64,000 nucleotides of DNA from Daphnia pulex (taxonomy: Eukaryota > Arthropoda > Branchiopoda > Diplostraca > Daphniidae), in NCBI RefSeq assembly GCF_021134715.1, contig NC_060022.1:315001-379000 (forward strand), read 5' to 3'. Positions 18,225 through 56,777 of the stretch are shown piece by piece (position 1 is the first letter of the stretch; each line of letters opens with the position of its first letter). The notes under the pieces were generated by a model, which was not told the origin of the DNA, searched no databases, and saw nothing but the letters and a program-made list of their open reading frames with translations. The position numbers and the translations under genes were made by a program.

Positions 18225-19568
18225 TTAATAGTGTTTCTTCTCAGAGCACGGGATGCCATTGTGGAAATGGACAGCGGGAACGGCAGCTGCTGCGTGATAC
18301 TGGTGGATTTCGTATTGGGGAGCAACTGGAACTGGGACAGGCTGGGCGTAAGGAGCGGCGACGGGCACCTCAACGGCGAACTTTTCAACGTTGACTTTGG
18401 TCGGGTGTTGGACGGTCACCTGGGGCGTGATTTCGGAGACGGTGCGGGCGGGAGCCAAAACTTTGGACTTTTGGACGAAGGATTCCTGTCCGACGGTTTT
18501 GGTCTGGGCCAATCCCATGAAGTCAAAGTTGGTGACGTGAGCACCGGCTCCCAAGTTGGGCTTCATGATGGTGGAAGTGTGTCCGACGACGACGGGGGTC
18601 TCGGCGTAGTGGACCCTGGTCTCGAAGGCCTGGGGGACAACATGGACTGGGGCAGCAGCGATCTGAACTGGGGCAGGTGCGGCATAGGCAACTGGGGCCG
18701 GGGCAGCGTAGGTAATTGGAGCTGGAGCAGCAACAGCTACTGGTACGGGAGCGGGAGCGGGAGCAGGAGCAGAGATGGGTGCTGGGAAATCGTATTCAAC
18801 TTTGACGGGAGCGGCAACCTGGACGACTGGAGCTGGTGCGGCATAAGCAACGGGAGCAGCAACAGCGACAACTGGGGCTGGAGCCGGGGCGGAGATAGGA
18901 GCGGGGAAGTCGTATTCAACCTTAACTGGTGCAGGTGCGGCGTAGGTGATTGGTGCTGGGGCAGCAACAACAACTGGTGCCGGAGCTGGAGCAGAGATGG
19001 GTGCAGGGAAGTCGTACTCGATCTTGACTGGTGCCGGCAGGGCAACGGGAGCAGCCACCGGGACGACTGGGGCTGGTGCTGGGGCCGAAATGGGAGCGGG
19101 GAAGTCGTATTCAATTTTGACTGGAGCGGCAACAGCTACTGGAGCAGCAGCAACAACAACTGGGGCTGGTGCTGGGGCAGCAATTGGTGCAGGGAAGTCG
19201 TATTCAACCTTAACTGGTGCAGGTACCGCAACAGCTACTGGGGCTGGGGCAGGAGCTGGAGCAGATACTGGAACGGGGAAGTCGTAAGTGATTTGGGGTT
19301 GAACGGCAACCTGGACGGGCTCAGGGACGGCGTAGGTCAGGGCAGCGACTCCATGGGCACACGGGACGGCCGGGTTGACCAAGTTAGTCGGTGCGGCCGA
19401 TGCGGCGGCAACCAATAGAGTGACCAAAATCTGTCAAAAGGATATCAATGTCATCAGTTTGAAATGAAATGAAGACAATAGTTTTTAAAGATTTTTCATT
19501 AATTATAAAAAATGTTAAAGATGAAGATGTTTTTTATCGAAGAAATTGTCTCTTACCAAAGGGTTCAT
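18225..19568 (-). CDS. Ala/Pro-rich secreted matrix protein P1 (405 aa)
   Basis: Exon 1 19568-19557 (MNPL), exon 2 19430-18225, phase 0. Signal peptide [18 protein letters not shown]. Then AVPCAH, and about six tandem units of roughly 30 residues built on [17 protein letters not shown] alternating with [16 protein letters not shown], then the conserved C-terminal domain from [16 protein letters not shown] to NGIPCSEKKHY. Two cysteines only. The repeats look like elastic or scaffold modules of cuticle; this is inference. P1 and P2 are near-identical, including much of the upstream region, so they are recent duplicates or are homogenised. The long open frame on the other strand is a composition artefact. 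Confidence 0.85.
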
Positions 19569-21735: not shown

Positions 21736-23276
21736 TGCACACGCAAGGGGGGTAGACATGACGTAAGCCAGTGGGTAAAGAATCTTCTTCTTCTTCTTCT
21801 CATAATTTGGTGAAGCGCTGTATCATCACATATAATCAAGCCCATCAAGCCCAAATATGTTGGGCTCCATCTTTGCTGAAGGAATTTACAAGTGTCCATG
21901 GGGCTCAGGTATATAACTCGTTGACTGGACAATGCCCCACGATACTTACAACATATCCCCAGCAAAAATGCCGGACCGAAACTAAACATTTCTCCAACCT
22001 CTTGATGTGCTGATGGGACGGAATGGTGGTCGACGAACTCGGCGAAAAGTGCTGGCCACCGAGAGAGACGTGCGTGATACAAGGAACGTGCGTTATTGTG
22101 TGTCGCGGGTGAAAAGCCAAAGCGCGTCTCTCGTGCTGGTGATGAATGTATACGAAAAAAAGCTTTTGTCATAAATTAGATGATTGCGCGGACATCTCCG
22201 GGACCGAAACGGACAGGCCAAGGTTAAACTGGATATTCGTCTTTAAATAAACTCTATAGAAGAATGTGTAAAGCCATTTTTTCCAGCTTCTGTCACGAAG
22301 ATCAAAAATCGTGAATTATAAACAATTAATTTTTTTAAAAAAAGAAGAATAACTTATAATAATAATGAGTCCAGTGAACCGTGGTGATGACATGGACATT
22401 TTTGACCAGCAACAAAAAAATTCCAAATTAGCTCGGCTTATATTATCGTCTAAACTTTTGTTGGCTGCGTGAGTCTCATGCAAATCAGCAAAGGGAGATG
22501 GCCGACTCTCAAAGGAGCGATAAGTGATGCGGGTCTATTATCATTTCATTCCAGGCAACAGCAAAAAACACTTTCAACTCATCTCCTCGAGGATTGCAGC
22601 AGCGTACTCGGAATACTCGGAAAGTACCACGCAGTAGATTCACGATATCATCACGTATTTTATCAGTAAAAACTCGTTTATTCCCGGAACGTCTTTTTTT
22701 TTGTAAGTTGATGCGCAAAGGGATGCGATTCGTCTTTTTTTTTTTTGTGTATGTTATTGTTGACGACGAAAGCGATGGCCTTGCCGAACCGCGTGATGGG
22801 CCAACTGGATGAGTCGGGTGTGGTCCACTGTCCCCCCCCCCCTTTCGAACAATGTGATCAACGTGGGTTCAAGATTCGGGAAGAATCTGTAAGATTTCTC
22901 AAGGTTGTGGCCATACATGTCATTCTTCTTTTTTCATCTTTCAAAAAGTAGTTTTATTTGTTATATGCTTAAATAGAAGAGGAAAGTTGACGAGGCAATT
23001 GGGAACGCCTTTGGCTTGAATACTAGTCTTTTTATCATTTATATACGTATATAGTTGATGATGAGTCCTTCTATGGTGCAAGTCACGAATAGTGACTTCT
23101 TATACAATCATAAGAATGACTAAGCGACTATCCACACAGGGCTATCTATAAGCCTTATCGAATTGAATGTGCGAATAAACAGAAGCGATGTTTTTTCTTT
23201 TGTATTACAATAAGCGTGAATATGAACATTTCAATCAACAGAATAAGTCTCGATTTGACATCTTGGAATATCTTGT
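21736..23276. other. Intergenic
   Basis: Several short open frames on both strands and poly-C/poly-T runs (22,838; 22,735) but no gene I can support. A TTC microsatellite lies near 21,785. Confidence 0.45.
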
Positions 23277-23682
23277 TTATGCAACCAAAACGGACTCGCC
23301 AGCTTTGGCATCAACGGCAGCGGGGGCGACGAATGAACCGTAAGGGTAGCCGGAATAACCGTATACTGGGTAACCGAAGTATGGGGTGGCAACGGCGTGG
23401 TGGGAGACTCCGACCGGGGTCAGGACGCGCTGGACGACGGGAGTGACGGCGGCGTAGGCGTGGCCCTCAACAGTGGACCAAGCGAAGTTTCCACCAAGAC
23501 GGTCGGACTTGATGATGGCGCTGTCATGGGCCGGAGCACGGACGAAGGTGGTGGCTGGGATGACGAAAGCGTTGGCGGCAGCCAAGCAAACCAAGAGGAC
23601 GGCGACCTAAATTTTAAAATGTGAACATCGTTAATTATCAGCGTGAAATGTAGAATTGATTTGATCAACTTACGACTTGCAT
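23277..23682 (-). CDS. 112-aa secreted Tyr/Gly/Ala protein, copy A
   Basis: Exon 1 23682-23674 (MQV) and exon 2 23606-23277, phase 0. Signal peptide MQVVAVLLVCLAAANA. The mature protein contains HDSAIIKSDRLGGNFAWSTV, then GHAYAAVTPVVQRVLTPVGV, then a Tyr/Gly segment (YFGYPVYGYSGYPYGSF), ending ESVLVA. The central SDRLGGNFA-STVEGHAYAAVTPVV part resembles short crustacean/insect cuticle proteins of the retinin-like type; I infer this from pattern only. Copy A is the most diverged of four (Trp for Tyr at GNFAW; PVYGY for PAYGY). Confidence 0.8.
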
Positions 23683-23761
23683 GTTGATTGAGAATGGAGA
23701 GAGTTGAAAGAGTGCTGAAAGTTAAAACGAGAGTGTTCGTTTTTCCTCCGCTTCGGTTCCA

Positions 23762-26060: not shown

Positions 26061-26509
26061 ATGCAAGTCGTAAGTCGATTGAAATCATTTCATACAACTT
26101 CTTGCAACATTGGCTTTCAAATGTTTAATTTGCAACTTCCCAACATTACTTAATTGTTAACTATTAAATGAAATTGCAGATCGCCGTCCTCTTGGTTTGC
26201 TTGGCTGCCGCCAACGCTTTCTACGTTCCAGCCACCACCTTCGTCCGTGCTCCGGCTCATGACAGCGCCATCATCAAGTCCGACCGTCTTGGTGGAAACT
26301 TCGCTTATTCCACTGTTGAGGGCCACGCCTACGCCGCCGTCACTCCCGTCGTCCAGCGCGTCCTCACCCCGGTCGGAGTCTCTCACCACGCCGTTGCCAC
26401 CCCTTACTTCGGTTACCCAGCATACGGTTATTCCGGCTACCCTTACGGTTCATTCGTCGCTCCCGCTGCCGTTGATGCCAAAGCTGGCGAGTCCGTTTTG
26501 GTTGCATAA
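26061..26509 (+). CDS. 112-aa secreted Tyr/Gly/Ala protein, copy B
   Basis: Exon 1 26061-26069 (MQV), exon 2 26180-26509, phase 0. Signal peptide MQVIAVLLVCLAAANA. The mature chain is identical in plan to copies A, C and D: FYVPATTFVRAPAHDSAIIK, GGNFAYSTVEGHAYAAVTPV, YFGYPAYGYSGYPYGSF. It diverges from copy A and converges on copy C. After the stop, the 3' UTR (ACAAGATATTCCAAGATGTA) is shared with all copies. Confidence 0.85.
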
Positions 26510-27483: not shown

Positions 27484-27901
27484 TTATGCAACCAAAACGG
27501 ACTCGCCAGCTTTGGCATCAACGGCAACGGGGGCGACGAATGAACCGTAAGGGTAGCCGGAATAACCGTATGCTGGGTAACCGAAGTAGGGGGTGGCAAC
27601 GGCGTGGTGGGAGACTCCGACGGGGGTGAGGACGCGCTGGACGACGGGAGTGACGGCGGCGTAGGCGTGGCCCTCAACAGTGGAATAAGCGAAGTTTCCA
27701 CCAAGACGGTCGGACTTGATGATGGCGCTGTCATGAGCCGGAGCACGGACGAATGTGGTGGCTGGAACGTAGAAAGCATTGGCGGCGGCCAAGCAAACCA
27801 AGAGGACGGCGATCTTGAAATTACAATTTTAAACAAATAATTAAAGAATCTAGTAGAGCAAATAAGAATATGCGCTAACGAATTGAACTTACGACTTGCA
27901 T
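27484..27901 (-). CDS. 112-aa secreted Tyr/Gly/Ala protein, copy C
   Basis: Exon 1 27901-27893 (MQV), exon 2 27813-27484, phase 0. Protein matches copy B except Val for Ala in FVAPVAVDAK. Exon 2 is 330 b in all four copies and the DNA is nearly identical, including third positions and the start of the 3' UTR, which points to recent duplication or gene conversion. Signal peptide present; structural cuticle-type role inferred. Confidence 0.85.
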
Positions 27902-31750: not shown

Positions 31751-33108
31751 TTAATAGTGTTTCTTGTCAGCGCACGGGATGCCATTGTGGAAATGGACAG
31801 CGGGAACGGCAGCTGGTGCGTGATACTGGTGGATTTCGTATTGGGGAGCAACTGGAACTGGGACGGGCTGGGCGTAAGGAGCGGCGACGGGCACCTCAAC
31901 GGCGAACTTTTCAACGTTGACTTTGGTCGGGTGTTGGACGGTCACCTGGGGCGTGATTTCGGAGACGGTGCGGGCGGGAGCCAAAACTTTGGACTTTTGG
32001 ACGAAGGATTCCTGTCCGACGGTTTTGGTCTGGGCCAATCCCATGAAGTCGAAATTGGTGACGTGAGCACCGGCTCCCAAGTTGGGCTTCATGATGGTGG
32101 AAGTGTGTCCGACGACGACGGGGGTCTCGGCGTAGTGGACCCTGGTCTCGAATGCCTGGGGGACAACATGGACTGGGGCAGGTGCGGCATAGGCAACTGG
32201 GGCCGGGGCAGCGTAGGTAATTGGAGCTGGAGCAGCAACAGCTACTGGTACGGGAGCGGGAGCGGGAGCAGGAGCAGAGATGGGTGCTGGGAAATCGTAT
32301 TCAACTTTGACGGGAGCGGCAACCTGGACGACTGGAGCTGGTGCGGCATAAGCAACGGGAGCAGCAACAGCGACAACTGGGGCTGGAGCCGGGGCGGAGA
32401 TAGGAGCGGGGAAGTCGTATTCAACCTTAACTGGTGCAGGTGCGGCATAGGTGATTGGTGCTGGGGCAGCAACAACAACTGGTGCCGGAGCTGGAGCAGA
32501 GATGGGTGCAGGGAAGTCGTACTCGATCTTGACTGGTGCCGGCAGGGCAACGGGAGCAGCAACCGGGACGACTGGGGCTGGTGCTGGGGCCGAAATGGGA
32601 GCGGGGAAGTCGTATTCAATTTTGACTGGAGCGGCAACTGGAGCTGGAGCAGTAGCAACAACAACTGGGGCTGGTGCTGGGGCAGCAATTGGTGCAGGAA
32701 AGTCGTATTCAACCTTAACTGGTGCAGGTACGGCAACAGCTACTGGGGCTGGGGCAGGAGCTGGAGCAGATACTGGAACGGGGAAGTCGTAAGTGATTTG
32801 GGGTTGAACGGCAACCTGGACGGGCTCAGGGACGGCGTAGGTCAGGGCAGCCGGGTAAGGGACTGGGGCAGCGGCGGCGTAGGCCACGGCAGCGACTCCA
32901 TGGGCACACGGGACGGCCGGGTTGACCAAGTTAGTCGGTGCGGCCGATGCGGCGGCAACCAATAGAGTGACCAAAATCTGTCAAAAGGAAATTAATTTAA
33001 TCGGTTTATGAAATTAAAAACATTTTTAAAGAGCGTTCATCAATTATAAAAATGTTAAAGATGAAGAAATTTTTTATCGAAGAAGTTGTCTCTTACCAAA
33101 GGGTTCAT
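31751..33108 (-). CDS. Ala/Pro-rich secreted matrix protein P2 (412 aa)
   Basis: Exon 1 33108-33097 (MNPL), exon 2 32977-31751, phase 0. Same signal peptide, AVPCAH, tandem [14 protein letters not shown] units and C-terminal domain as P1, ending [11 protein letters not shown]. Compared with P1 it has an extra [20 protein letters not shown] stretch after the first cysteine and lacks one VQIAAAPV unit before the C-terminal domain, so repeat slippage has occurred. Two cysteines only. Most likely cuticle or matrix scaffold protein (inference). Confidence 0.85.
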
Positions 33109-34618: not shown

Positions 34619-35027
34619 ATGCAAGTCGTAAGTCGATCAAATGATTTAATTGATTTCACGCTAATATCTATACTAATTTTTTTTAATAATTTTCAAGATC
34701 GCCGTCCTCTTGGTTTGCTTGGCTGCCGCCAACGCTTTCTACGTTCCAGCCACCACATTCGTCCGTGCTCCGGCTCATGACAGCGCCATCATCAAGTCCG
34801 ACCGTCTTGGTGGAAACTTCGCTTATTCCACTGTTGAGGGCCACGCCTACGCCGCCGTCACCCCCGTCGTCCAACGCGTCCTGACCCCGGTCGGAGTCTC
34901 CCACCACGCCGTTGCCACCCCTTACTTCGGTTACCCAGCATACGGTTATGCCGGCTACCCTTACGGTTCATTCGTCGCTCCCGCTGCCGTTGATGCCAAA
35001 GCTGGCGAGTCCGTTTTGGTTGCATAA
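34619..35027 (+). CDS. 112-aa secreted Tyr/Gly/Ala protein, copy D
   Basis: Exon 1 34619-34627 (MQV), exon 2 34698-35027, phase 0. Differs from copy B by one residue in the Tyr/Gly segment (YGYAGYPYG for YGYSGYPYG). The 3' UTR again starts ACAAGATATTCCAAGATGTA. Separated from copies A-C by the DHRS4-like gene and P2, so the family spread with the cluster rather than as a simple tandem array. Confidence 0.85.
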
Positions 35028-38124: not shown

Positions 38125-39559
38125 TTAAATAATTTTATTTCGTTTAAATATGATTGAATAGACTGGGCCTTTAATCAGATGGGTTGAACCAGTTTTCGTC
38201 GGCAACCCAGTTGACGGCGGTGTTATCGAGAATGGAGTCCGAGTAAGATTCGCGGTTAACATTGCCAATATCCTTTGGTTTCGGTCCAACTTGTCTTTGG
38301 CTGCCACTCTTGGAAAAGCTGCTATTATTTATAACTAACAAAAGTTTGAAATGATTTATAAAAATATTATTTGTTACCTGAAAGAGTAACTACCGTCGTC
38401 TCTTTTCTCGATGACTGAGTCATCGCCATCTATTGGATTCATCTCGTATTTTAGTTTGTGCTCGGGCATTGGGAGAGGAGTGGGCAAATGGTCACCGGTG
38501 GCCTGAAAACCGTTTTCATCGGCAACCCAGTTGACAGTCAAGACGACGCCATCGGAAGTAGTGAAGGAGTAAGATTTGTAGGAAACTGTGTCGATATCTT
38601 CAGGCTTAGGTCCAACTTGTTTCTGGCTGCCTCTCTCGCAGAGTTTTTTGGTGCCATCCTCACTCTTGAAACTGTCGAGTATTTTAGACGATTTAGTTAG
38701 AAGATGATACATATGTACGTGCACTAGAAATGAGTAAATGAACTTACTCGAAAGAGTTGCGGCCATCAGCGTTCATTTTGCTGACACAAAAATAGGATCG
38801 TTTGAGAGCAGCGAAGAAACCAGCGTTCTTTAATGCGGTGAGAAGACGGTGAAGTTTGTGCTCGGGCATAGGAGGAGGTGTGGGCAAATGATCGCTGATT
38901 GACCTGTTTGTTTTCGCTGCAACAACGACTTTTGTACCGTTGGTGCCATCTAGATTTTTGCGTAATATATTTTTGTGATTATCAGTCTTCATTCGTTTGT
39001 GGGCCCGAATCAGATTAGGATGAGGCTCAGGGTCTCCCCTTTTCCAAGGCGGAAATATATTACCAACCGTACCGCTACTAGCGCTGTAAGAGTGAAATTT
39101 TATCGGCACGCTTCCGACATCTTCGTATTTTCGTTCGATGTGTTTTTGACTTCCTTCCTTCTCCTGCTTGGTACCGTCTTCTGTAATAACCGCGTATTAA
39201 TCGTTAAGTGATTTACCTTTGCTGTAACTTTTTAGTTTTTACCACTTTCAAATCTAAGTGTCTGGCTGTCGCTCTCATCTAATTCGACCGGGGCAGTGTA
39301 AGTGACGACCAGCAGACCCAAAAGTAAAACAATTTTGCTGAACTAAATGCAACCATTAAACGTGCGTTAAAAATGGGTGTCAATATTTTTCAGAATAAAG
39401 GAGAAAACGTAAAGTAAAAAAAAACAAAAAACAAAACAGAGTTAGTAGTATGTTCTCGGAACGAAAATGATTTACGGTACCATTCTCAATGTCTTTCTCT
39501 CCATTTTTTCGTATGTTGTTGATTAGTCGCAGACTTTTGGGATACTTGTTGATTTTCAT
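38125..39559 (-). CDS. Multi-domain R&R cuticular protein, last domain frameshifted (about 343 aa)
   Basis: Exons (minus): 39559-39546 (MKINN, tentative), 39337-39243, 39180-38748, 38671-38378, 38320-38125. Signal peptide KIVLLLGLLVVTYTAP. Each domain begins FESEDGTK or similar plus GSQK. Exon 4 carries a good RR-1 domain (SYSFTTSDGVVLTVNWVADE followed by NGFQATGDHLP), which in this family binds chitin. The exon 3 domain is degenerate (no ADENGF) and carries an unusual HPNLIRAHKRMKTDNHKNIL insert. In exon 5, a one-base deletion in the GPKPEDI region (near 38,280) shifts the frame, so ADENW and the end of the domain are lost and translation runs to a foreign tail. Exons 4 and 5 join with a TAGCAG tandem acceptor. 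It is possibly decaying. Confidence 0.6.
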
Positions 39560-40057
39560 TACTTACTCTTCGTATTTATGTACATGATGGTATACTCTGT
39601 GTGCCAGTCGAATTAATACGGTGCAAATATTAATACGGCAGTATATTTGGAATGCCCTGTGTTTTGCTGCGTTTGTTCAGGTGTTGGGAGACTAACAGAG
39701 TCGATGACATAAGGTTCGATAAACTGACCTCATTATACAATCCGCTTCTATTCATCAAACCAACTGAAACAACACGGCTGTTACCGATGACTCAGTATAT
39801 TCAGATATACATTCATTATTCTATGCGAGTTCAACGTTACATTCTGTAGTTTACTACTTTGTTTATTTAAAATCTAATTCTCTGGAGATTATTTACTTCT
39901 TGCCGATATTAGATTTACTGCCAAAATTCAAATACATAACACAAACAAAAAATTCTTAACGATCAGGTTTCATATATTTCCGGTATTAACAAAGCAGTTA
40001 TTAACACTTCTGAGCCATGCCGAAGATATAATTTAAAGTAATCAAATCGTCAATTTT
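39560..40057. other. Intergenic; P3 3' flank
   Basis: No gene. 39,963-40,050 (AGGTTTCATATATTTCCGG and onward) matches the 3' flank of P2 at about 31,648-31,735, so the P duplication included flanking DNA. Confidence 0.55.
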
Positions 40058-41881
40058 TTAAATGGGTCTTATAGTCGCAGTAGTATGAGACGCCGAATTG
40101 TAGAAATGGACAGCAAGATAGACAGCTGCTGGTGCGTGATACTGGTGGATTTCGTATTGGGGAGCAACTGGAACTGGGACGGGCTGGGCGTAAGGAGCGG
40201 CGACGGGCACCTCAACGGCGAACTTTTCAACGTTGACTTTGGTCGGGTGTTGGACGGTCACCTGGGGCGTGATTTCGGAGACGGTGCGGGCGGGAGCCAA
40301 AACTTTGGACTTTTGGACGAAGGATTCCTGTCCGACGGTTTTGGTCTGGGCCAATCCCATGAAGTCAAAGTTGGTGACGTGAGCACCGGCGCCCAAGTTG
40401 GGCTTCATGATGGTGGAAGTGTGTCCGACGACGACGGGAGTCTCGGCGTAGTGTACCCTGGTCTCGAAGGCCTGGGGGACAACATGGACTGGGGCAGGTG
40501 CGGCATAAGCGACCGGGGCAGGTGCGGCATAGGCAACTGGGGCCGGGGCAGCGTAGGTAATTGGGGCTGGAGCAGCAACAGCTACTGGTACGGGAGCGGG
40601 AGCGGGAGCAGAGATGGGTGCGGGGAAGTCGTATTCAACTTTGACGGGAGCGGCAACCTGGACGACTGGAGCTGGTGCGGCATAAACAACGGGAGCAGCA
40701 ACAGCGACAACTGGGGTTGGAGCCGGGGCGGAGATAGGAGCGGGGAAGTCGTATTCAACCTTAACTGGTGCAGGTGCGGCATAGGTGATTGGTGCTGGGG
40801 CAGTTACAACAACTGGTGCCGGAGCTGGAGCAGAGATGGGTGCAGGGAAGTCGTACTCGATCTTGACTGGTGCAGCAACCCGGATGACTGGGGCTGGTGC
40901 TGGGGCAGCAATCGGTCCTAAAATGTCGTATTCTACTTTAACTGGTGTTGGGGCTGGTTTTGCTATTACAGCGGGGAAATCGTAAGTGATTTGGGGTTGA
41001 ACGGCATTGGCGACGGGCTCAGGGACGGCGTAGGTCAGGGCAGCCGGGTAAGGGACTGGGGCAGCGGCATAGGCCACGGCAGCAACTACATGGGCATACT
41101 GTACGGCCGAGTTGACCAAGTTAAGCGGTGCGGCCGATGCGGCGGCAACAAAAAGAGTGACTAAAATCTGTCAAAAGGAAATCAATGTCATCAGTTTATA
41201 AAATTAAAGCAATATTTTTTAAGAGTGTCAGTGTTGTGACCGATCTTAATTTTTTTTACCGCGATTCCGGTCCCGATCACAGAAAAAAAAACAATCTTGG
41301 TAGCGATTGCGATTCCACTTGAAGATCGCGGTCGCGGTTGATTTCTTTATTTTATTTATTTTCTTTCTTAATCGCGGTACAAATTTTACCTATGTCATAT
41401 CCGGTTTTCATTGCTACTTAAAACTAGAATCGCTACGTATAAAAACATCTGCTAATAATTCAACGAAACAGTCTGCAAAATATTTCGGGTTCACACATAT
41501 ATCAGATTATTATGGTCTTTCTTGGGCTTGGATTTACAACACAGATGTGAATTTCACAATTAATTGAAAATCAAAAGCTTAATATCGACTGCTCGAGTAT
41601 AATAAGTATGTATTGAATAACAAAAACATAATGAGAATAATAAGAATAACAATGTCCACCAGGCAGGTAACATTCGCCTTGGCGAATCCTTTATAAAAAA
41701 AAAAAAATGTCCACCACGAATATGCTAGGACAGATTAATATACTTGAGAATCCAAGCGCGGTATAAAAGTTGTTTTGTTTCCTTTCCTTTTAACTTAGCA
41801 ACTTCTATCAGGCCTAGTATAACAATAACAATACAAATACTCACAACAAAATCGACTTACCATCCTTAATTCCCAGTTCAT
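40058..41881 (-). CDS. Ala/Pro-rich secreted matrix protein P3, with replaced first exon (376 aa)
   Basis: Exon 2 41167-40058 is a P-family body with signal core [28 protein letters not shown] units and the conserved C-terminal domain. No MNPL exon is found at the usual distance; homology to P1/P2 stops in the intron near 41,225. The nearest usable exon is 41881-41861 (MNWELRM, donor GTAAGT, phase 0), which is the first exon of the R&R gene family (MNWEPRL at 45286). The joined start MNWELRMILVTLFVAAASAA is a good signal peptide. Both family cysteines are gone: AVQYAH instead of AVPCAH, and the C-terminus reads HFYNSASHTT instead of HFHNGIPC. Transcription from a cuticular-gene promoter is inferred. 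Confidence 0.65.
41396..41640 (+). repeat. Promoter-upstream repeat, copy 1
   Basis: Diverged copy lying inside the proposed P3 intron. It starts ATCCGGTTTTCATTGCTA and shares TATGGTCTTTCTTGGGC and AATATCGACTGCTCGAGTAT with the other copies. Confidence 0.6.
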
Positions 41882-41922
41882 GTTTTTTTTTCGGATGTTG
41901 TTGAATATGTAACAGTCCGTTA

Positions 41923-42031
41923 CTGTGTAATAAAGAGTATACAAATGGAATGTATAAATGCTGTCTGCTCAATAGGGTACATATACAGCGGTAGCATAAC
42001 AAGTGGGGTGCTTGCTCCTCTTTTATATATA
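41923..42031 (-). promoter_or_regulatory. Promoter of P3, shared with the R&R gene
   Basis: Read on the minus strand, ACAGTAACGGACTG near 41,920 looks like an initiator, with a TATA-like CATTTATACATTCC about 30 b upstream; both are also present at 45,329-45,365. A stronger box TATATATAAAAG is at 42031-42020 and is missing in the other copy. Confidence 0.5.
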
Positions 42032-42221
42032 CCTCTATGTATCTGCAGTTCTGCATGCCATACAATTTGATATAATTAGTCGCGATCGTCATACTTCTTC
42101 AACAACTGGTTCACAGTTGTCAATTGTATCGAATTGTATAGCAACGGGTTGCTTTGAAGTTCTAGTGCTAGTGACGCGCGGACGTTATCAGCAACCATTC
42201 AATGTTTATTGGCTCCCGTAT

Positions 42222-42500
42222 GCCGTATCCGGTTTTCAGTGCTAGTTAGAACTGGAATTGTATTAAAGTATACAAACATCTGCGGGGTTAACGACACAGT
42301 CTGCGCAACACTCCGGGTTGACACATTTTACAGGGTGTTATGGTCTTTCTTGGGCATTTCCAACACAGTCGAAAGCGACTGAAGGTGTATTCCAAAGTCG
42401 CTTATTAAGAATTAAAGCTTTATATCGACTGTTCAAATATAATTAGGATACGAATTGAATAATAAAACAATGAGAATAATAACATTAACAATATGTCCTC
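42222..42500 (+). repeat. Promoter-upstream repeat, copy 2
   Basis: Starts GTATCCGGTTTTCAGTGCTA. Very close to copy 4 (45,615), and sits the same distance upstream of a MNWE exon. Confidence 0.7.
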
Positions 42501-44199
42501 CACGAATTTGCTAGTGCAGAAAATAGACTTGAGAATCCAAGCACGGTGGAAATGTTTGTTTTTTTGTTTGTTTTTTTTACTGAAAAGTCATCTAAAGATA
42601 ACCTTTCCCCTTGATTTCTGCAATGTCTTTCCATCACTTTCCAGGTCCTATTTCAATATCCAGTCGTGTTATTTTTTTCTCTTTGGTTTATTGCGTTGTA
42701 ACCTGCCTGTCAACGCATCGCTACTTAATTTTCAGTTCGCCTACACTCTCTTTTTGTTTTTACTTGGGATTTTTTTGTGTGACATGCAAGGCGCGTTACG
42801 TGTGCCAGTCGATTGGAGATGATTATACTTCCGAATTACTTTTGCCGCTCATTCTACTAACACCAATACCAGTAGTACACGTATAAGACTTAAGGTTAGC
42901 GTTCTCTCCATTTGGTTCTTTTGCCGTTCTCCATCTTTTTGTTTCTCCATTGAATGACGCCTCTCTGGTTAATTGCCTATGCATGCTGAGCTTTGCAGCA
43001 GTCAAACCAAATCCGTATTATATGATGATTCGCATATAAAATTGCGGTAAACTAAGACTCGCTATGCCTATCATTGTCATTCTCAAAACCCCGGATGTGT
43101 GGGCATGCTATAGAAATGAGGTCAGCACGTATGTCATAGCTGTCATACTGCTGCATACTTATTTTTCAACTGGGCAACAGTAGCTATAGTATCTTAGTAA
43201 CTTGTTGATTGTATACAACCTTATTATTAAGTTATTGACCCGTTCGCAATAAGTGGCACGTAAACTTCTAGTGAGAACACAGATGTTGGTTTACAAACAA
43301 ACCTGTGTTTGTTTATCCGGTTTTCAGTATACTATGGTTAAAACTGGAACACCAGCATACAAACATATGTGAGTTCAACATTCTGGTACACATTCTGTGC
43401 AACATTCTAGGTTTACTCATATTTACGGGTTGTTGCTATGACATATTTTATTTTATGACGATGTATTTTTCGTATTTTGTAATTTTTTTAAAACCTGGGG
43501 ATACGTGTACCGCGCTATGATAAGTGCACATCTCGATGTGAATGGACCACAAAGATATTCGATCACCGAGCGTCACCGAGCCATACAATCAGAGCCGAAG
43601 CCACTTCTAAATGAGCCCTAACATGAAATTATTAAAAATTTAAATTAATTTTAATGAAGAACGAAACAGAGATGAAAGTGAGGAAAAGTTAGGCATCCTA
43701 TTATACAGGGAATAAGCAAACTGATGTAAAAAATAAAATTAGGTTCAGTTAGGACGATTCAGGATTAAAACCGATTACCACAATGTCGATGCACTGCTGC
43801 TATATCTTTATTTCGGGAGAGGAGGGATCCAGCAAGTAACGAATAACAGTTTTTATCAAGGTTCAATCTATTTTTGAACGCTGTTTGAGAACACTATGTA
43901 AGTTAATTGTTAGATAGGGCGAGACTTGAATCGTGGGTACCGGTTGGTACAAAACGGATCCTGTAAATATTTGTCCGGATTCTCGAATCATGCTGGATGA
44001 ACAATGATTTCGACGTAAAAGAACTTGCAAGAAAATTTACATATCAAGTGAAAGTGAAACAAAGAAACGCGAATTACCTTAAGTTTAGCGACCCTCTACA
44101 ACAATAATTCAAAGATAATTCTTTTTACCCGCAGGTAAATTGCTGTGTATTTTATTTATGATTTCTGCCAATAGTTGCGGGTTATGTATAAGAACAAGT
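42501..44199. other. Intergenic
   Basis: Apart from repeat copy 3, no gene. Open frames at 42,493-42,886 overlap in several phases and are not accepted. Confidence 0.45.
43313..43470 (+). repeat. Promoter-upstream repeat, copy 3 (partial)
   Basis: Starts ATCCGGTTTTCAGTATAC and keeps only the first half of the unit. No MNWE exon follows, so it is an orphan fragment. Confidence 0.55.
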
Positions 44200-45286
44200 T
44201 CACAGGAGACGGGCAGCCTTTAAGTCGGCGAGCATCCTGACGACGTGCTCGGGCATGGGGGGAGGAGTGGGCAAATGGTCACCGGTGGCCTGGAATCCGT
44301 TCTCATCGGCGACCCAGTTGACAGTGATGACGACGCCATCGGGAGTGGTGAAGGAGTAAGATCCCTTGGGAGCAGCCAATAGACCAGCGTTATTCGCACC
44401 AGCGAGGAGGCGGAGAAGCCTCTGCTGGGGCATGCGAGGAGTGGGCAAACGATTACCGGTGTCCTGGATTCCGTTTGCCTTGGCAACCCAGTTGACGGTC
44501 AATGTGACGCCTTCGGGAGATATGTAGGAGTAAGATCCTTTGGGAGGAGCTTTGCGACCAACGTTGTTCGCACCAGAAGTCAGAAGGCGGAGAAGCCTGT
44601 GTTCGGGCATGGGAGGAGGAGTGGGCAAATGGTCGCCGGTGGCCTGGAAACCGTTTTCATCGGCGATCCAGTTGACGGTGATGACGACGCCATCGGGAGA
44701 GGTGTACGAGTAAGATCCGCGGGAAACGGTGCCGATATCCTCGGGTTGAGGTCCGACTTGATTCTGGCTGCCGCTCTCTGAGACTTTGGTGTCATCCTCA
44801 CTCTCGAAACTGTAGAAACCCGTCACAATTAGTTGTGCGTCATCATTTAAATTAAATTGTCAATTGTCAAACTACACATGTCGGTCGCATTGACAACTTA
44901 CTCAAATGAGTAGCTTCCATCAGCGTTCATTTCATGGATGGATGAAACGAAGTCAATTAGCTCCTTCTCTCCTTGTGGTGCAGCAAAAGCCACGATCAAG
45001 AAAGCGAGAGCAACGATCTAGTATAATGCAAGGTATTAAAAAAGAAGGGATTGAGAAAAAAGCCGAGCAATAAAAAAAAAGCTGACAATGCACGAAAGCA
45101 AAAAGTAAAACGTACAATTTACAAATTGAACTATGCAAACATTAAACGAATTTGTTTCAATAATTTGTCCAAATTGCCATACAAGGGAAAACAATTTATA
45201 GATTTGGCCTAATTTTAAAAGAATAACAATACAAATACTCGGAAGTCGGAACAATATAAACTTACCAATCTTGGTTCCCAGTTCAT
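44200..45286 (-). CDS. R&R cuticular protein with three RR-1-like domains (248 aa)
   Basis: Exons (minus): 45286-45266 (MNWEPRL), 45017-44902, 44809-44200; phases 0 and 2. Signal peptide MNWEPRLIVALAFLIVAFAA. Domain 1: MNADGSYSFDFESEDDTK, GSQNQVGPQPEDIG, then SYSYTSPDGVVITVNWIADE followed by NGFQATGDHLP, a full Rebers-Riddiford RR-1 consensus. Domains 2 and 3 repeat the second half: SYSYISPEGVTLTVNWVAKA (degenerate, lacking DENGF) and SYSFTTPDGVVITVNWVADE. PTPPPMPEH linkers separate them. R&R domains bind chitin, so this is a cuticle matrix protein with possibly two working sites. Neighbour at 38.1 kb is a relative. Confidence 0.85.
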
Positions 45287-45328
45287 GTTTTTTTTTCGTA
45301 CGTTGTTGAATATGTAACAGTCCGTTAC

Positions 45329-45365
45329 TGTGTTATAGGGAGTATACAAATGGAATGTATAAATG
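45329..45365 (-). promoter_or_regulatory. Promoter of the R&R gene
   Basis: Initiator-like ACAGT at about 45,331-45,327 and TATA-like TTTATACA about 30 b upstream. The region is duplicated upstream of P3. Confidence 0.5.
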
Positions 45366-45614
45366 CCGTCTATTGCCAACTAGGGTAGAGTTAAAGTGTT
45401 AGTTTGTTAGTGTAACAAGTGTAGAGTGCTCGCTCCACTTATGTATCTGCAGTTCTCCATGCCATACAGTTAGTCACGAACGTCATACTTCTTCAACAAC
45501 TGGTTCACAGTTGTCGATTGTATCGAATTGTATAGCAATAGGTTGTTTTGAAGTCCTTACGATAGTGACGCGCGGATGTTATCAGCAACCATTCAATGTT
45601 TATTGGCTCCCGTA

Positions 45615-45870
45615 TGCCGTATCCGGTTTTCAGTGCTAGTTAAAACTGGAACCGTTTTTAAGCATAGAAACAGCTGTGGGGTCAACAAAACAGTCCGCCC
45701 AACAGCAGTCCGGGTTGACACTTTTTTTTTCAGGTATAGTAATGGTCTTTCTTGGGCATTTCCAACACAGCCGAAAGCGATTGCATGTATATTCCACAAT
45801 CGTTTTAGAATTAAAAGTTATAATATCGACTGATCGAGTATAATAAGTGTACAAATTGAATGATAAAAAC
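45615..45870 (+). repeat. Promoter-upstream repeat, copy 4
   Basis: GTATCCGGTTTTCAGTGCTA start, then TATGGTCTTTCTTGGGC-like and AATATCGACTGATCGAGTAT blocks; lies upstream of the R&R gene. Confidence 0.7.
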
Positions 45871-46189: not shown

Positions 46190-46354
46190 ATGTCGCTTCG
46201 TTTTTGGATAATTTTGCTGATGCTGGCTAATACCGGTTCATCATCCCTGCAGAATAATGTTTCATGCGACTTTGCAGAAAACGAATTTGGGCAAAACTGC
46301 ATCAGCAAACCCCTATCGCCACTGATTTTGCTACATTATTTAATTAATTGTTAA
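46190..46354 (+). CDS. Short secreted-type frame cut by a MITE (54 aa)
   Basis: ATG directly follows a good acceptor (TTTTTTAG at 46173) and an upstream donor (ACAG|GTAAGT near 46084) exists. MSLRFWIILLMLANTGSSSL is a convincing signal peptide. From codon 35 the frame runs into the foldback element at 46292, so the tail (KPLSPLILLHYLINC) is transposon sequence. Probably the front end of a broken secreted-protein gene. Confidence 0.3.
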   Translation: MSLRFWIILLMLANTGSSSLQNNVSCDFAENEFGQNCISKPLSPLILLHYLINC

Positions 46355-46741
46355 ACGAAAATTTTTTAAATTAGATAATATCAACACTTCATTTTTTGCA
46401 ACAATGTTCATTCATATTTAAAAGAATTAACCAATTTAAACTTAATTTTAATTTAACATTAAATACTTAAATATGATTCCAGTTCTAACCGGTTCTAACT
46501 AGCAACTATAACCGGTTCTAACTAGTCGTTTTTTTCTTATTTCCTCGAATTTCCCCGAACAATGAAAACTAATTTCAGATAAAAATTAAGCTTGAATAGA
46601 TTAATTCTTTTAAATATGATTGAACATTGTTTCTAAAATAGTAATCGTTGATATTTTCTAATTTAAAACGATTTTCGTTAAACAATTGATTAAAAAATTT
46701 AGCAAAACCAGTGGCGACAGGGGTTCGCCGATGCCATTTTG
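46292..46741. mobile_element. 450-bp foldback MITE
   Basis: The two halves are inverted copies: CAAAACTGCATCAGC at 46292 matches the reverse complement of the end at 46741 (CAAAATGGCATCGGC), and CCCCTATCGCCACTG matches CCCCTGTCGCCACTG. Homology continues inward about 200 b on each side to a centre of CCGGTTCTAACTAG repeats near 46,500. No open frame of its own. Target-site duplication is not obvious. Confidence 0.75.
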
Positions 46742-49614: not shown

Positions 49615-50414
49615 ATGTTTAAGAGACTATGTGGAGTGTATACTAATAACTGTTTAATTAATCTTTTACATCATAGGCATCAAGCATATTGAGAGCTATA
49701 AAGATAAAGTTTCCACATTTTGAATTCGTCTGTACCAACACGTCCGAACAGCCAGCTGTCGGCACCGCTGACAACGCACACAAACCAGAGGATGTGATTG
49801 ACGTCCATGAGACAAACAAACAAGGTATTGTTGAAATCCACTGACCTAATCAAAGATAGTTTTATATACTTGAATAAGCTTTACGATTTACATGGTAACA
49901 GATTCCTGTTGACTGAATAACAAATTATAAACAAAGTGAGATGTCAAGCACATTTACAACAAATTATAAACAAGATGGCTTTCTTTTTTTTATATATTTG
50001 CAGGGTTTAAACTACATGTTTCTAAATTTGCATACCAGACTTTATGAGAAGTCATGTCCTTTGAAGAAAAAGGACGATGACTACACAGTCAACAAGGTCC
50101 CTTGTTTGAAAACCTGTTGGCTGCTACCTGTGAATCTCCCTTTTTAATTCCTTAAACGGGCCCTCTTAATTGAGGTATTGCTTTCTGTCGCTAAAATCTT
50201 ATTGAAAATTATTGTTACCCAAATAAATGTTCATTCTGCTTACAGGGTAACTCCTTCGATACTGATCATCCACTGGACCCGACTTCATCCATTGGTGAAA
50301 GCTGACGGGAGAATGCTGTAACTGTAATTCAAGATTGATAAATTGTTCAATCGTTAGATTAAATTATAAGTGCATATCTGGGTTCCCTTCTTTTCTGTGG
50401 CCCCGTTTCCCTAA

Positions 50415-50690
50415 TTAACTACTAACCAACGCCCGCCGGTGGTCACTCACCCGCTGTGAAACCAGGAGGAGGGGAGGGCTCTGGTCGAACGGGGACTTGG
50501 AAGGCGCATGATCCGATGAAAACTTTTGGAGGGTCATGAGTCTAACCCGGAAGCCTAGTATGACTACATCTCCCCAGTAAAACTTGCCTCGTACTTCTCT
50601 CTTCTTCTCGGTCCAGATAAATATCTCTGGGGGCCGTAGACATATCCTATAACAGCATGTGCGAGTTAAACAAAGCAACCCACTACCCAA
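50415..50690 (-). other. Palindrome-arm open frame (91 aa), left copy
   Basis: MGSGLLCLTRTCCYRICLRP start, core FYWGDVVILGFRVRLMTLQK. Repeated with only two residue changes near the C-terminus in the right arm at 55,279-55,554 (plus). The GFR core also appears at 1,140-1,180. It is conserved because the arms are near-identical, so coding status is unproven. Confidence 0.3.
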
Positions 50691-51056
50691 TGAAACAAAA
50701 AGCCATGGTTTATTATTTGCGCAAATCTCCGTCAGTCAAGTTACAAATTTTTCTAATTCAACAACTCGCGTAAAATTTTGCACTAGTCTATTAGTGCAAA
50801 TCGCGATTCCATCATGTGTTTGGTAGTTAAGAAAACGGTTGTTTAAAAAACAAACAATGGGGTGTTCTGTGTAGCCAAAAAAACTCACCATTGTTTGTTT
50901 TTTAAACAACCATCTTCTTAACTACCAAACACATAGGATCGCTATTTGCACCAGTAGACTAGATGCAAAATTCGACAGAAGTGATGAGTTTGAAAAATTT
51001 GTAACCTGACTGACGCAGATTTCCGCAAAACTAAACCATCGCTTTTTGTCTCATTG
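50688..51056. mobile_element. 369-bp foldback MITE in left arm
   Basis: Ends CAATGAAACAAAAAGCCATGG and the inverse CCATCGCTTTTTGTCTCATTG; inside, TGTTTGTTTTTTAAACAACC and its inverse face each other. Almost the whole element is one hairpin. The same element sits at the mirror position 54,913-55,281. Confidence 0.75.
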
Positions 51057-52324
51057 CCGCAGCGGTGGTGGCGGGTTGCGTTTAAACTCGTGCAGAAGAA
51101 AAACGTCTTGAACCGGACGCTCTGTTAATTGAATTATTTCAGTTTAGAAAAAAAAGAAAGATAATAAAAGTCGGTTGAAATTATGTTTATTAATTATTTT
51201 TTACAGATGTTACATAGTTAAGGTTCAACATTAGTTTAGGGGTTAAGGGTGTAAATTTGAGGGTTGGTAGGTGTATGTTTCTGGGGTTTGAAGAACTGGA
51301 AGGTATAAGTTTGTGGGGTTTGGAGATTAATTGGTAAGGATATGTATGTAGGGTTATAGATTAACTGAATTTTTATCCAAACTTGAAATATCCTCCCTCC
51401 CCTCTCCAACATCCTCCACTTTCCTTTCCCAATCCCGAAAACATGTTTATTATTTGTTGACATAAACATCCCATATTTGTTTTTGTTGCTTCTTAACTTA
51501 TTAACGGTAAACTGCAGTCACGATGACAATTTAACAAAATAATGATGCAATTTCGGTAACACGACACCAAGGAACGGCCAATTGAACTTGATGTAGGACG
51601 ATCTTTTACGAGCACAGGCTGAAACAATGTGCCACATCGGACAGCAACTACGCGAACATAAACGCGAAACCTATAGCCATAATGAAATGAATAAATGTCA
51701 CTTTATGATATTTACAAGAGTTAACACAAATCATTTGCTTACCATTGAGAAAATTGTACATGTCAAATTCAAAATGCTGGCTGAAAAAATCCATGTGTTA
51801 ATTAGACTGGCCGAAGAAGAAGGTGAAGCTAAGACTTCAACTAGCTATTAATCACTTAATCCTTGTAAAAATAATTACTATTGAGGAATTTAGTCTCATA
51901 TGATGCTCACAAAAATGACAAGTATATAGCTTAACTACGCATCCTCTCAGAACTATTCTTAGAACTGTTACAAAAGAATCTACAGTTCACAAGCTTTACC
52001 AATGAGTAATACAATTAAAAAATTTTTCAAGGGAAAAAAAAATATTTCTTCAAAGGACTGAGCACACAGCAGTACAGGAAGCAAGAGAAAAACCATTACC
52101 TGACGCTTATGTCAAATTCATGTGAACATTGGGCAGCAACAAAGAAGCTCATACTTCACCAGGCTGTTAATCCTATTAAGAAAAAAAAATACCAACAGAA
52201 AACAGTAAGTGACAGCATAGTTACAGAAGATAAGTTTATACAATCCTTCAGAATTACTTTCAAAGGAATTACAGTTGGCAAGTTTTTCCTTTGTAAACTA
52301 GACTGAAAATTCTACAACAGATGA

Positions 52325-52553: not shown

Positions 52554-54912
52554 TTCAGTTCATTCTGTTCAGTGTTTTTTACAATATGAAACATACAGCT
52601 GGTACAGGTAGCAAGAAGAGCACCTATCACCGGCTGGCTGCAACAAACCCATCTGCACATAGCACATATTGGACTGACACAAAGAAGCTCAGAATTCACC
52701 AGCCTGTTCTAAGAAATATATGAAAAAAAAAAAAATGATTCAATGAGTTAAATGCTCATCACAACAGTTAACTGCAAAATTACCTCAGGTGCGAGTGACA
52801 ATTTGTCAGCGTCCAGCTATTAATGTGCATTACTTGACATTGAAAACATCACGAAAGGGGATGGCAGCAAATTAGCACCAACTCCACATCAACAGTTAGG
52901 GCTAAATTCTTCATCTTAAGTGTTGTCATATCTGCAAAAGTCAATAAAATTTCATTAGATATGGATTTGGAAAGAGATGAAAATGTTTCCTTTTAACTTG
53001 ATATATATGATGTTTTATGTTGTTGAACCCTCTTCAGGATAGTCCTGGGCTATTTCAAACATTTAGAAGATTGCCTGCTTTGTTTTAACCACATTGTTGA
53101 AGGACGGGAGGATCCTACGAGGCTACGATTGAGCAATCGATAAAACTGAGAGCTCTTCTTCTTTAGCAGACTAAAATACAAAATTCATCGCCATCTATGA
53201 TTCACATTTACAACTACTGATATGGAACAATAAGTCTTCGTTACGCAAGCTAGCCGCCATTTTTTTCGAGCACTGATTGAAAGCGTATCGTTATCCGTAT
53301 CCGTACGGCGTATTTTCCTTCCTCACATTTTTGTTCATAAAAATGGTATTTCCCGTTTGGATTGTTAGATGTTACGAAGTCTTAATTATTTGTGTGTGAA
53401 TTTAGTAATTTGTGTGGTAACCTAGCCTATAATTTCTACTTGGAAATTTCAGCTGATCATGAGGCCTGAGCAGAGCCTGAGCATTTTGCCCTGCACATTT
53501 TGCCAAGATGTCGTCTCTTTTTCCTGTACCGGCTGTTTGTAAGAATCACTTCAGAACAAATCAGGTAAATATGTTCAACTTTCTAACTGTGAGACTTAGT
53601 AGTTCAGACTTAGTAGTTGGTGACTACTGACTGTGTCTTAACTTGCCTGTTGTAGAACTTTAAGTTGTCTACCTTGGAAAAGCTTGCTAGCTGTAGGCTG
53701 TAGGTTCCTTTGCAACGTTTTTTCTGAAGGATTGTGTAGTTAACTTTAACTTCTGTCATTTTTGTTTTTTGTCATTTGAGATGCTGTGTCCTTGACATTG
53801 AAGTTTGTGTAATTGAGTTTTTTTATGATTAACAGTCTGGGAAAGTCTGAGCTTCGTCGTTGCTGCCAATGTACACATGGATTCAATGCAGCCAGTTGTT
53901 CCTCTTGCTACCTGTACTGCTGTGTGTTTCGTCAAATGAAGAAACATGAACAACTGGATTTAATGATCCATTATTGTCTGGCGGTTTCAAAAAGCTTGCT
54001 AACTGACAACGAGAGATGTTTAGTTGTACTTGTGTCATTTTTGTTATCGTCGCATGAGAATTCATTGCTTGATGGTAATTAATTTTTTTAAAGCAGGAAT
54101 AACATAACATATTCGTTGTTGCAGTCAAAATCACACATTTTGTTTTTGTGTAAACAATAGCTATCAGATATTGTTTTCTGAATATTTGGTATAACTAAAA
54201 CCATATAAAGTGACATTTATTCATCTTTTCATTGACAGCATTTCCATTGATGCTGAAAATTAATTCATTTCATTATGGTTACAGGTTTATCGTGTTTGTT
54301 CGCGTTGTTGCTGTCCGCTGTGGTACGTTGTTTCAGCCTCTGCTGGTGATAGATCTTTCTGCATCAAATTCAATTAGCCGTTCCTTGGTGCTGGACTGCT
54401 GGTGTCGTGTTACCGAAATTGTATCATTATTTTGTTAAATTGTCATCGTGACTGCAGTTTACCGTTAATAAGTTCAGAAGCAACAAAAACAAATATGGGA
54501 TGTTTATGTCAACAAATAATAAACATGTTTTCGGGATTGGGAAAGGAAAGTGGAGGATGTTGGAGAGGGGAGGGAGGATATTTCAAGTTTGGATAAAAAT
54601 TCAGTTAATCTATAACCCTACATACATATCCTTACCAATTAATCTCCAAACCCCACAAACTTATACCTTCCAATTCTTCAAACCCCAGAAACATACACCT
54701 ACCAACCCTCAAATTTACACCCTTAACCCCTAAACTAATGTTGAACCTTAACTATGTAACATCTGTAAAAAATAATTAATAAACATAATTTCAACCGACT
54801 TTTATTATCTTTCTTTTTTTTCTAAACTGAAATAATTCAATTAACAGAGCGTCCGGTTCAAGACGTTTTTCTTCTGCACGAGTTTAAACGCAACCCGCCA
54901 CCACCGCTGCGG

Positions 54913-55281
54913 CAATGAGACAAAAAGCGATGGTTTAGTTTTGCGGAAATCTGCGTCAGTCAGGTTACAAATTTTTCAAACTCATCACTTCTGTCGAATT
55001 TTGCATCTAGTCTACTGGTGCAAATAGCGATCCTATGTGTTTGGTAGTTAAGAAGATGGTTGTTTAAAAAACAAACAATGGTGAGTTTTTTTGGCTACAC
55101 AGAACACCCCATTGTTTGTTTTTTAAACAACCGTTTTCTTAACTACCAAACACATGATGGAATCGCGATTTGCACTAATAGACTAGTGCAAAATTTTACG
55201 CGAGTTGTTGAATTAGAAAAATTTGTAACTTGACTGACGGAGATTTGCGCAAATAATAAACCATGGCTTTTTGTTTCATTG
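54913..55281. mobile_element. 369-bp foldback MITE in right arm
   Basis: Inverted, equal-length copy of the element at 50,688-51,056, at the exact mirror position. This shows the element was present before the arm was duplicated, or that the arms are converted. Confidence 0.75.
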
Positions 55282-55554
55282 GGTAGTGGGTTGCTTTGTT
55301 TAACTCGCACATGCTGTTATAGGATATGTCTACGGCCCCCAGAGATATTTATCTGGACCGAGAAGAAGAGAGAAGTACGAGGCAAGTTTTACTGGGGAGA
55401 TGTAGTCATACTAGGCTTCCGGGTTAGACTCATGACCCTCCAAAAGTTTTCATCGGATCATGCGCCTTCCAAGTCCCCGTTCGACCAGAGCCCTCCCCTC
55501 CTCCTGGTTTCACAGCGGGCGAGTGACCACCGGCGGGCGTTGGTTAGTGGTTAG
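55279..55554 (+). other. Palindrome-arm open frame (91 aa), right copy
   Basis: Mirror of 50,415-50,690; ends SQRASDHRRALVSG where the left copy has SQRVSDHRRALVSS. See that entry. Confidence 0.3.
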
Positions 55555-56777
55555 TTAGGGAAACGGGGCCACAGAAAAGAAGGGAGCCCAGATATGCACT
55601 GATAATTTTATCTAATTAACTACACAATTTATCAGTCTTGAATTACAGCATTCACTTGTCGGTTTTCACCAGTGGATGAAGTCCATGATCAGAAGCGAAG
55701 GATTACTCTGTTAGGAGAATGAACATTTTTTTTACGAAAATAATATTCAAACAAGATTTTAGTGGCGGTAAGTAATACCTCAAATCATGAGGTCCCGTGT
55801 AAAGAAGTAAATAAAGGAGATTCAAGGGTAGTAAACAAGGGACCTTGTTGACTGTCCTTGTCCTTTTCTTGAAAAGACATGACTTCTCATAAAGTCTTCC
55901 ATGCAAATTTAGAAACCTGGAGTTCAGAACCTGTAAATTAAAAAAATATATATGATAAGTCAACTTGTTTATAATTTGTGTCATCAATGTGCTTGACATC
56001 TATGATCTAAAAGAATAATTTAACAGTTATCACTTATCAGTATACACTCGAAATCCTCTCTTAAACATTAGAAAGACGTAAGTGGAGATCATTACTTTTA
56101 ATACATAAGACTGCAACGGAAAAAGTTCAGTGACATGATAACTGATAAGTGAACTTACACATGAAACCACCGATCAGTTATCCAATCTTCTCTCGAGAAG
56201 ATGAAATGAGAGATTGGTCTATGCTGGGGTGGTGAGATAGCAATTCCAATCAAACAGCTGATAATTAAGATGAATCATAATCAAACAAGAGAAGAATATA
56301 TGTTTCTGAAATGCTGTAATAAAGCTAGTGTAAGTTGTTACCTGTATCATTTCGATGGCACATTCAGTAGAATACAATCAGTTTGAACAAAATAGTTGAC
56401 GGTAGGCTGCACGACTTTCACGTTTCCTCAGACCAACATGGTCTGCAACATGGTCTCCGCGAGACGTCTCACCCATATTACCTGCCACCTCTCTTCGGCT
56501 AAAAAAATCAAAATAGCATATGACCTATAAAAGTTTGGAAAATAAAAAAATTATATTACATTAAATCTACAGACGACAAGTATCCTTTTCATTAAGGACT
56601 TAAGGATTAGTTCAAATTAAAATACCTAGCCCGAGTGTGCTTCAACAGCATCACACTTGGTCTCTGAATTTCGAATTTTAAAAAACAAACTCAATACAAA
56701 ATAACACTGCACCACTGCTTGTCAACAACCTTCAATAGATCGATATAAGCAACAAGAATGAAGAGTAGGTATTTTAC

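Follow-up and report, generated by a model that had tools for sequence, protein, structure and literature searches.

We analysed a 64,000-nucleotide window of Daphnia pulex DNA (assembly GCF_021134715.1, contig NC_060022.1, positions 315,001 to 379,000 of the forward strand); all positions below are counted from its first letter. The window contains no N, has a G+C content of 0.41 and looks eukaryotic. Our subject is P3, a gene whose body belongs to a family of A/P/V-rich, cuticle-like proteins (the P family: P1, P2, P3 and the shorter P0 and P4) and whose 5' end appears to come from an R&R cuticular gene. Apart from P3, the P family lies at 11.7-33.1 kb, while the two R&R genes of the window, identified by Pfam family PF00379 (Chitin_bind_4), lie at 38.2-39.3 and 44.2-45.3 kb. 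P3 showed no PF00379 match at an E-value of 0.001, and so falls outside the CPR (R&R) family; the open reading frame (ORF) at 44200-44859 in the R&R gene at 44.2-45.3 kb, here gene A, matched it at 2e-42 in three stretches. P3 shares the core of the P family: over 119 core codons there were no nonsynonymous differences to P0 and P2, and one to P1.

P3 exon 2 occupies 40058-41167 on the minus strand. It is an ORF of 369 codons plus a stop, made of A/P/V-rich repeats and the conserved core, and its alignment with P1 and P2 placed exon 2 of those genes at 18225-19430 and 31751-32977. In P1 the start exon ATGAACCCTTTG (MNPL), followed by GTAAGA, lies at 19557-19568, 126 nt from exon 2; in P2 the same exon and donor lie at 33097-33108, 119 nt from exon 2, in agreement with the distance of about 125 bases given in a first-pass annotation of this DNA. 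TATAAAA and TCAGT-type sites, which we take to be promoter motifs, precede the MNPL exon in both genes. Homology between P3 and P2 runs from 39959 to 41228 and breaks off inside the first intron, where the annotation had placed its end near 41,225; beyond this breakpoint the MNPL exon and its promoter are absent. What remains of the original P-type first intron is its 3' part, 61 bp at 41168-41228 (minus strand) with the acceptor TTTTGACAG; leaving aside the last CAG, 8 of 56 aligned sites differ from P2. The 3' flank of P3 (39959-40057, minus strand) is homologous to P2 31642-31750, with differences at 12 of 96 aligned sites. At the expected place of the MNPL exon there is instead a junction filler, 41229-41390, to which no strand is assigned; it is rich in CGCGATC-type words, and no second copy of it was found in the window.

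An in-frame stop (TGA CAG) stands directly upstream of P3 exon 2 and the first internal Met lies deep in the core, so the exon requires another exon 5' of it. Because the 61 bp of intron with its acceptor and the 3' flank are both kept, P3 moved as DNA; the same features rule out retroposition. The best explanation of this arrangement is that P3 arose by DNA-level duplication of a P1/P2-type cuticle-like gene, in a copy truncated at its 5' end that would have lost its promoter and MNPL exon.

Upstream of P3 lies a start of a different kind. Copy B, a 650 bp segment at 41818-42467 (minus strand), is 79% identical over 680 columns (E 1.9e-169) to copy A, the 5' end of gene A at 45216-45868 (minus strand). 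It covers distal upstream sequence, promoter, 5' untranslated region (UTR), exon 1 and the start of intron 1. Exon 1 of gene A, MNWEPRL with a GTAAGT donor, occupies 45266-45286; the gene's body follows at 44200-45017 on the same strand, with exon 2 at 44902-45017 and then an exon holding the three Chitin_bind_4 stretches. The homologous exon in copy B is MNWELRM at 41861-41881 (minus strand), also with a GTAAGT donor, and it is this exon that the first-pass annotation had described about 700 bases upstream of P3 as a match to the R&R gene. The 5' UTR and core promoter of copy B (41882-41968, minus strand) contain CACAGTA from 41927 and TTTATAC from 41958, presumably initiator-like and TATA-like elements.

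The likeness between A and B reaches farther than had been noted: it continues for about 590 bp ahead of exon 1, about 500 bp past the promoter. A and B differ at 85 of 623 aligned sites overall and at 4 of 21 in the exon itself. A 30-nt stretch drawn from A and B, presumed to hold initiator and 5' UTR, is identical in the two; with 3 or fewer mismatches allowed, the window has no third match to it, and shuffles gave an expectation of 0.00. The most conserved stretch is distal to the promoter, at least 60 identical sites at 42184-42248, and is a possible enhancer or mobile-element end. Words such as GAAAACCGGATA near this stretch reappear in two further pieces of R&R 5' sequence. One of these, copy C (41391-41779, minus strand), had also been overlooked; it lies between exon B and P3, contains only the distal upstream part, and is 71% identical to 42219-42502 and 69% to 45613-45870, with 41714-41779 being 82% identical to 42500-42565. 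The other, fragment D (43314-43434, minus strand), is distal upstream sequence 69% identical to 42226-42339 (E 1.7e-5). Both are fragments without exon 1. We dropped the idea that C is clearly older than B, as its substitution distances to A and B (0.20 and 0.23) only slightly exceed the A-B distance of 0.19 in the same part. The orphan promoter and exon B are most likely a leftover of a duplication of a neighbouring R&R gene.

Joined to P3 exon 2, exon B leaves an intron of 693 nt in phase 0, and the combined ORF is open, as expected from the earlier statement that both introns are phase 0. Exon B was also the one start-exon candidate found upstream of P3 when 41168-43700 (2.5 kb) was scanned for an ATG, 2-15 codons and a phase-0 donor of the form GTRAG[TAG]. 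The highest mean hydropathy over 10 residues was 2.8 in the B-P3 chimera, compared with 3.1 in P1 and P2, 3.5 in gene A, and 0.9 when P3 was read from its first internal Met; it is plausible that the join yields a signal peptide. P3 thus combines two parental sources, exon B from an A-type R&R gene and the body from the P1/P2 type, in a single frame that stays open across a phase-0 junction, and its intron remnant and 3' flank mark it as a product of DNA-level change.

This two-source structure of the DNA is very probably real. That P3 is an exon-shuffled chimeric gene, a 5'-truncated P copy behind an orphan R&R promoter and exon, is the reading we favour, with only modest confidence. Under this reading the P3 copy would have landed 693 nt behind the orphan promoter and first exon, with both facing the same way. 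If the promoter fires, the transcript would begin in copy B at about 41925 and would be spliced from 41861 to 41167, both first introns being of phase 0 within the signal peptide. The product would be a secreted chimera under R&R-type control, and as such may be of importance. Whether such a spliced transcript is used we regard as evenly balanced.

The first-pass annotation had P3 capturing the promoter and exon. Its two sources hold; the direction probably does not, since those R&R 5' copies that the window shows all fall in this interval and the remaining P genes are found at 11.7-33.1 kb: the P3 body was probably the newcomer that entered R&R territory, with the R&R-type start at home. Between A and B the Jukes-Cantor (JC) distance is 0.15 overall, 0.115-0.126 in two ungapped blocks and 0.19 in the distal part; for the noncoding flanks of P2 and P3 it is 0.14-0.16. 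As the A-B divergence is of the same order as that of the P2-P3 intron piece and 3' flank, the A-B and P3 duplications are compatible with a similar age. P2 (31.7-33.1 kb) and A (44.2-45.9 kb) flank P3, which bears on an origin by a single tandem duplication across gene borders; copies C and D and the junction filler, however, point to more than one event in the making of the arrangement.

The P3 body is itself uneven. In its centre (40130-40875) 13 of 722 sites differ from P2, whereas its flanks do so at 70 of 509 (Fisher 1e-16); against P1 the figures are 19 of 740 and 68 of 449 (2e-15). These P values are descriptive, as the borders of the centre were set after viewing the alignment and coding constraint also cuts divergence. 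Silent sites are low in the 119-codon core too: synonymous divergence (dS) between P3 and P0-P2 is 0.07-0.10. Low core dS in addition to the low divergence of the centre indicates that the centre was homogenised with P1/P2 after duplication, most likely by gene conversion. P0, at 11.7-12.3 kb on the plus strand, has a segment at 11797-12258 that is 92-96% identical to P1-P3 (18213-18729, 31739-32192 and 40097-40564), despite its opposite strand and a very diverged N-terminal part. This segment appears to have been homogenised likewise, a homogenisation of one exon segment that would span four genes.

Because the centre is homogenised, the identical core protein was rejected, as it stands, as proof of selection on P3, and only P3-private changes were used. 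In a nucleotide alignment the centre holds 7 synonymous and 3 nonsynonymous private changes (P = 0.005 against equal per-site rates, a test that takes no account of transition bias), although such changes could derive from an unseen donor. This count replaces one of 8 to 3 (P = 0.002) from a protein-guided alignment that had misplaced repeats. The longer in-frame indels of P3 resemble repeat-unit changes and are weak evidence.

Several observations weigh against a working chimeric gene. Shuffled sequence yields 0.63 start-exon candidates by chance, so the mere presence of one means little and the weight of exon B rests on the A-B homology. The core promoter and 5' UTR differ between A and B at 6 of 87 sites, compared with 79 of 536 elsewhere, which is not significant (P = 0.06). 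We therefore dropped core promoter conservation as evidence of use: in the earlier proposal of exon and promoter shuffling, the intronic breakpoints and phase compatibility stand and use of the promoter is a possibility. The conserved ATG and GTAAGT were likewise rejected as functional proof, their retention by chance being about 0.27 by a hand estimate (0.864^9). In the first 60 codons of P3, nonsynonymous divergence (dN) and dS are 0.095 and 0.116 to P2 and 0.123 and 0.124 to P1, a dN/dS of 0.8-1.0; for the entire unconverted 5' part the ratio is about 0.57 with P2 and 0.55 with P1. In the last 20 or so codons, length changes of 3, 2, 4, 1 and 1 nt relative to P2 keep the frame overall and replace the conserved ...FHNGIPC... 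end. Both cysteines common to P0, P1 and P2 are lost, that of PCAH near the N-terminus and that of GIPC at the C-terminus. The parts of P3 outside the homogenised centre look to be under relaxed constraint, and gene conversion could keep the centre good-looking in a dead gene. P4, a short relative at 14.2-14.9 kb on the minus strand, likewise lacks the PCAH and GIPC cysteines, as if the two form a pair.

The second R&R gene lies downstream of P3. It is partly degenerate and occupies 38180-39342 on the minus strand, with a PF00379 match of 8e-12 in 38374-38772 and none in 38744-39196. Exon B could also be spliced to its exon 2 (39243-39342, minus strand), the acceptor of which is in phase 0. 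An exon 1 reading MERKTLRM, a third start missing from the first-pass account, lies at 39481-39504 (minus strand) and ends 138 nt before this exon 2; it has a 5' UTR block at its ATG in common with A and B, and is the probable first exon of the gene. Its donor, GTACCG, is weak, fitting the consensus at 4 of 9 positions, compared with 7 of 9 in A and B and 6 of 9 in P1 and P2. The window therefore holds one more R&R-type start than it has R&R bodies (three against two), and B is the start that lacks an R&R body.

Homology of this third exon 1 to A and B had mixed support. The 18-base sequence TCAACAACRTMCGAAAAA has three zero-mismatch matches, one before each of the three start exons, and another with 3 mismatches elsewhere; shuffles had a mean of 0.40 matches and reached four in 0 of 100, for a pattern derived from the very three sites on which it was scored. 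In a pattern-free local alignment 1 of 1000 shuffles did at least as well as the real sequence against A, and likewise 1 of 1000 against B; for a longer stretch the score was 74, and the highest among 200 shuffles was 54. When B was compared over a narrow stretch the score was 37, below the best of 1000 shuffles (40). Neither 39540-39958 nor 41229-41390 resembled the A promoter: 975 of 1000 shuffles for the former and 972 of 1000 for the latter scored at least as high as observed. The idea that P3 landed within the promoter of the second R&R gene, copy C being the distal part of that promoter, is unsupported for this reason. Within the gene, a ...MNADGRNSFE end followed by GTAAGT, as in exon 2 of gene A, lies internally, and the first of its R&R copies is in pieces; it looks as if parts of several R&R units had been fused to make it.

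The main rival to a chimeric gene is a dying copy: both parts would be relics, exon B having lost its R&R body and P3 being a promoterless P pseudogene whose centre is rewritten by conversion from P1/P2. The disparity between centre and flanks, the scrambled tail, the near-neutral dN/dS over the first 60 codons and the two missing cysteines would all follow, and C and D, lacking exon 1, are themselves fragments. Set against this are 369 codons with no stop, private changes in the centre that favour synonymous ones, and an intact splice donor and acceptor; we consider decay the less probable account, though a serious one. It is unlikely that exon B instead serves the downstream R&R gene, with P3 nested in an enlarged first intron and either skipped or alternatively spliced. 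Exon B is in frame with that gene's exon 2 (MNWELRM-FSKIVLLLGLLVVTYTAP), the gene's own exon 1 has the weak donor, and 39347-41167 holds no candidate with a GTRAG-type donor. However, that gene has a relative of exon 1, complete with the shared 5' UTR block, close before its exon 2, and a transcript from B would meet the P3 acceptor before the R&R one.

A different first exon for P3 (longer, farther away, UTR-only in another phase, or with a non-consensus donor) would have escaped a scan limited to GTRAG[TAG] donors, 2-15 codons and 2.5 kb. Exon B, however, fits the phase and signal-peptide requirement exactly and the scan gave no second candidate, so such an exon is very improbable. An assembly misjoin that placed P3 beside the R&R segment is scarcely to be expected either: the genes are repetitive and partly homogenised and come from one assembly, but the window is free of N, and differences of about 11-16% between A and B and between the flanks of P2 and P3 mark the copies as distinct loci.

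P1 and P3 matched no Pfam family at E 0.001, and P0 and P4 none at E 0.1. In a search for relatives elsewhere, a peptide pattern had 3 matching stretches among viral contigs and 53 among genome contigs, none confirmed, in collections not meant for animals. Four copies of a small cuticle-like gene (FYVPATTFVRAPAHDSAIIKSDRLGGN...), one perhaps shortened, occur on both strands at 82-92% identity (23198-23703, 26168-26509, 27484-27828 and 34677-35027). Parts of two adjacent chemosensory-receptor-like genes lie at 8214-8597 and 9631-10107 on the plus strand, with 7tm_7 matches (E 4e-3 and 4e-5) under the curated cut-off. Directly upstream of gene A is a palindromic segment of 450 bp (46292-46741), 73% identical to its own reverse complement, which we take to be similar to a miniature inverted-repeat transposable element. 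Farther on, 49939-51696 and 54259-56001 form an inverted duplication of 1.78 kb at 91% identity, each arm with an internal palindrome (50688-51056 and 54913-55281).

P3 is best read as a further example of chimeric genes formed at the DNA level, a kind described in Drosophila. Like the D. yakuba chimeras that arose by tandem duplication (Rogers et al. 2017, PMC5460883), it would carry the 5' end of one gene and the 3' part of another, with regulatory elements shuffled; that study also reports a related case, a gene fragment formed by duplication and secondary deletion. There, expression was often altered where 5' ends had been shuffled: 24 of 76 chimeras were upregulated, compared with 5 of 66 whole-gene duplicates. 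The D. yakuba chimeras were segregating and had RNA-seq, whereas the parts of P3 are more than 10% diverged, its parents are non-adjacent, and it is known from DNA alone. In rearrangement-born genes (Stewart and Rogers 2019, PMC6776367) an established gene's 5' end likewise supplies the start signals, but the 3' part was previously untranscribed, while that of P3 is a copy of another gene's body. A Schistosoma japonicum family (PMC3434034) resembles the present case in that the duplicated shared part is a promoter with a signal-sequence segment; it differs in its dispersed duplication of a source locus to many sites, flanking repeats and expression evidence, where here the copies are local and a foreign body stands behind one of them.

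The gene design that would permit such a junction is general. In Anopheles gambiae an intron splits the signal peptide in 86% of those CPR genes that have introns, the coding part of exon 1 is 3-36 nt long (median 12), and TATA and initiator (INR) elements were found in 93% (PMC2259329). This short signal-peptide first exon would be the design at P3 too; unlike the case here, the passages of that study drawn on describe no cross-family exon swap. In Drosophila cuticular genes some conversion tracts begin near coding repeats, as is possibly so in the P3 centre (PMC2793513); that paper treats insect cuticular families, including one converting array without such repeats, and the terms chimeric and exon shuffling are absent from its text. 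Among the matches listed, judged by titles and the starts of abstracts from a coverage that leaves many journals outside, there was no cuticular example of an exon-shuffled chimera. Nor was a paper found that combines cuticular protein, chimeric, exon shuffling and promoter, which is no proof of absence.

What seems unusual about P3 is the pairing of two unrelated cuticle-type families, with a body in which sequence exchange with the parents appears to continue. The same 64 kb contains the two parental types, and broken copies as well. Tentatively, and with some doubt, phase-0 signal-peptide exons and their promoters may act as exchangeable cassettes: transcription from the R&R promoter would have rewired P3 in one step, and conversion would maintain its body. 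If so, the control and the coding part of one gene would evolve in two family networks. If P3 is transcribed, it is a clear-cut case of a gene body from one structural family being driven by another family's promoter and signal-peptide exon, and the idea that the tiny-first-exon design eases regulatory swaps in cuticle genes becomes testable; if it is untranscribed, the arrangement at P3 is an ordinary relic of array turnover.

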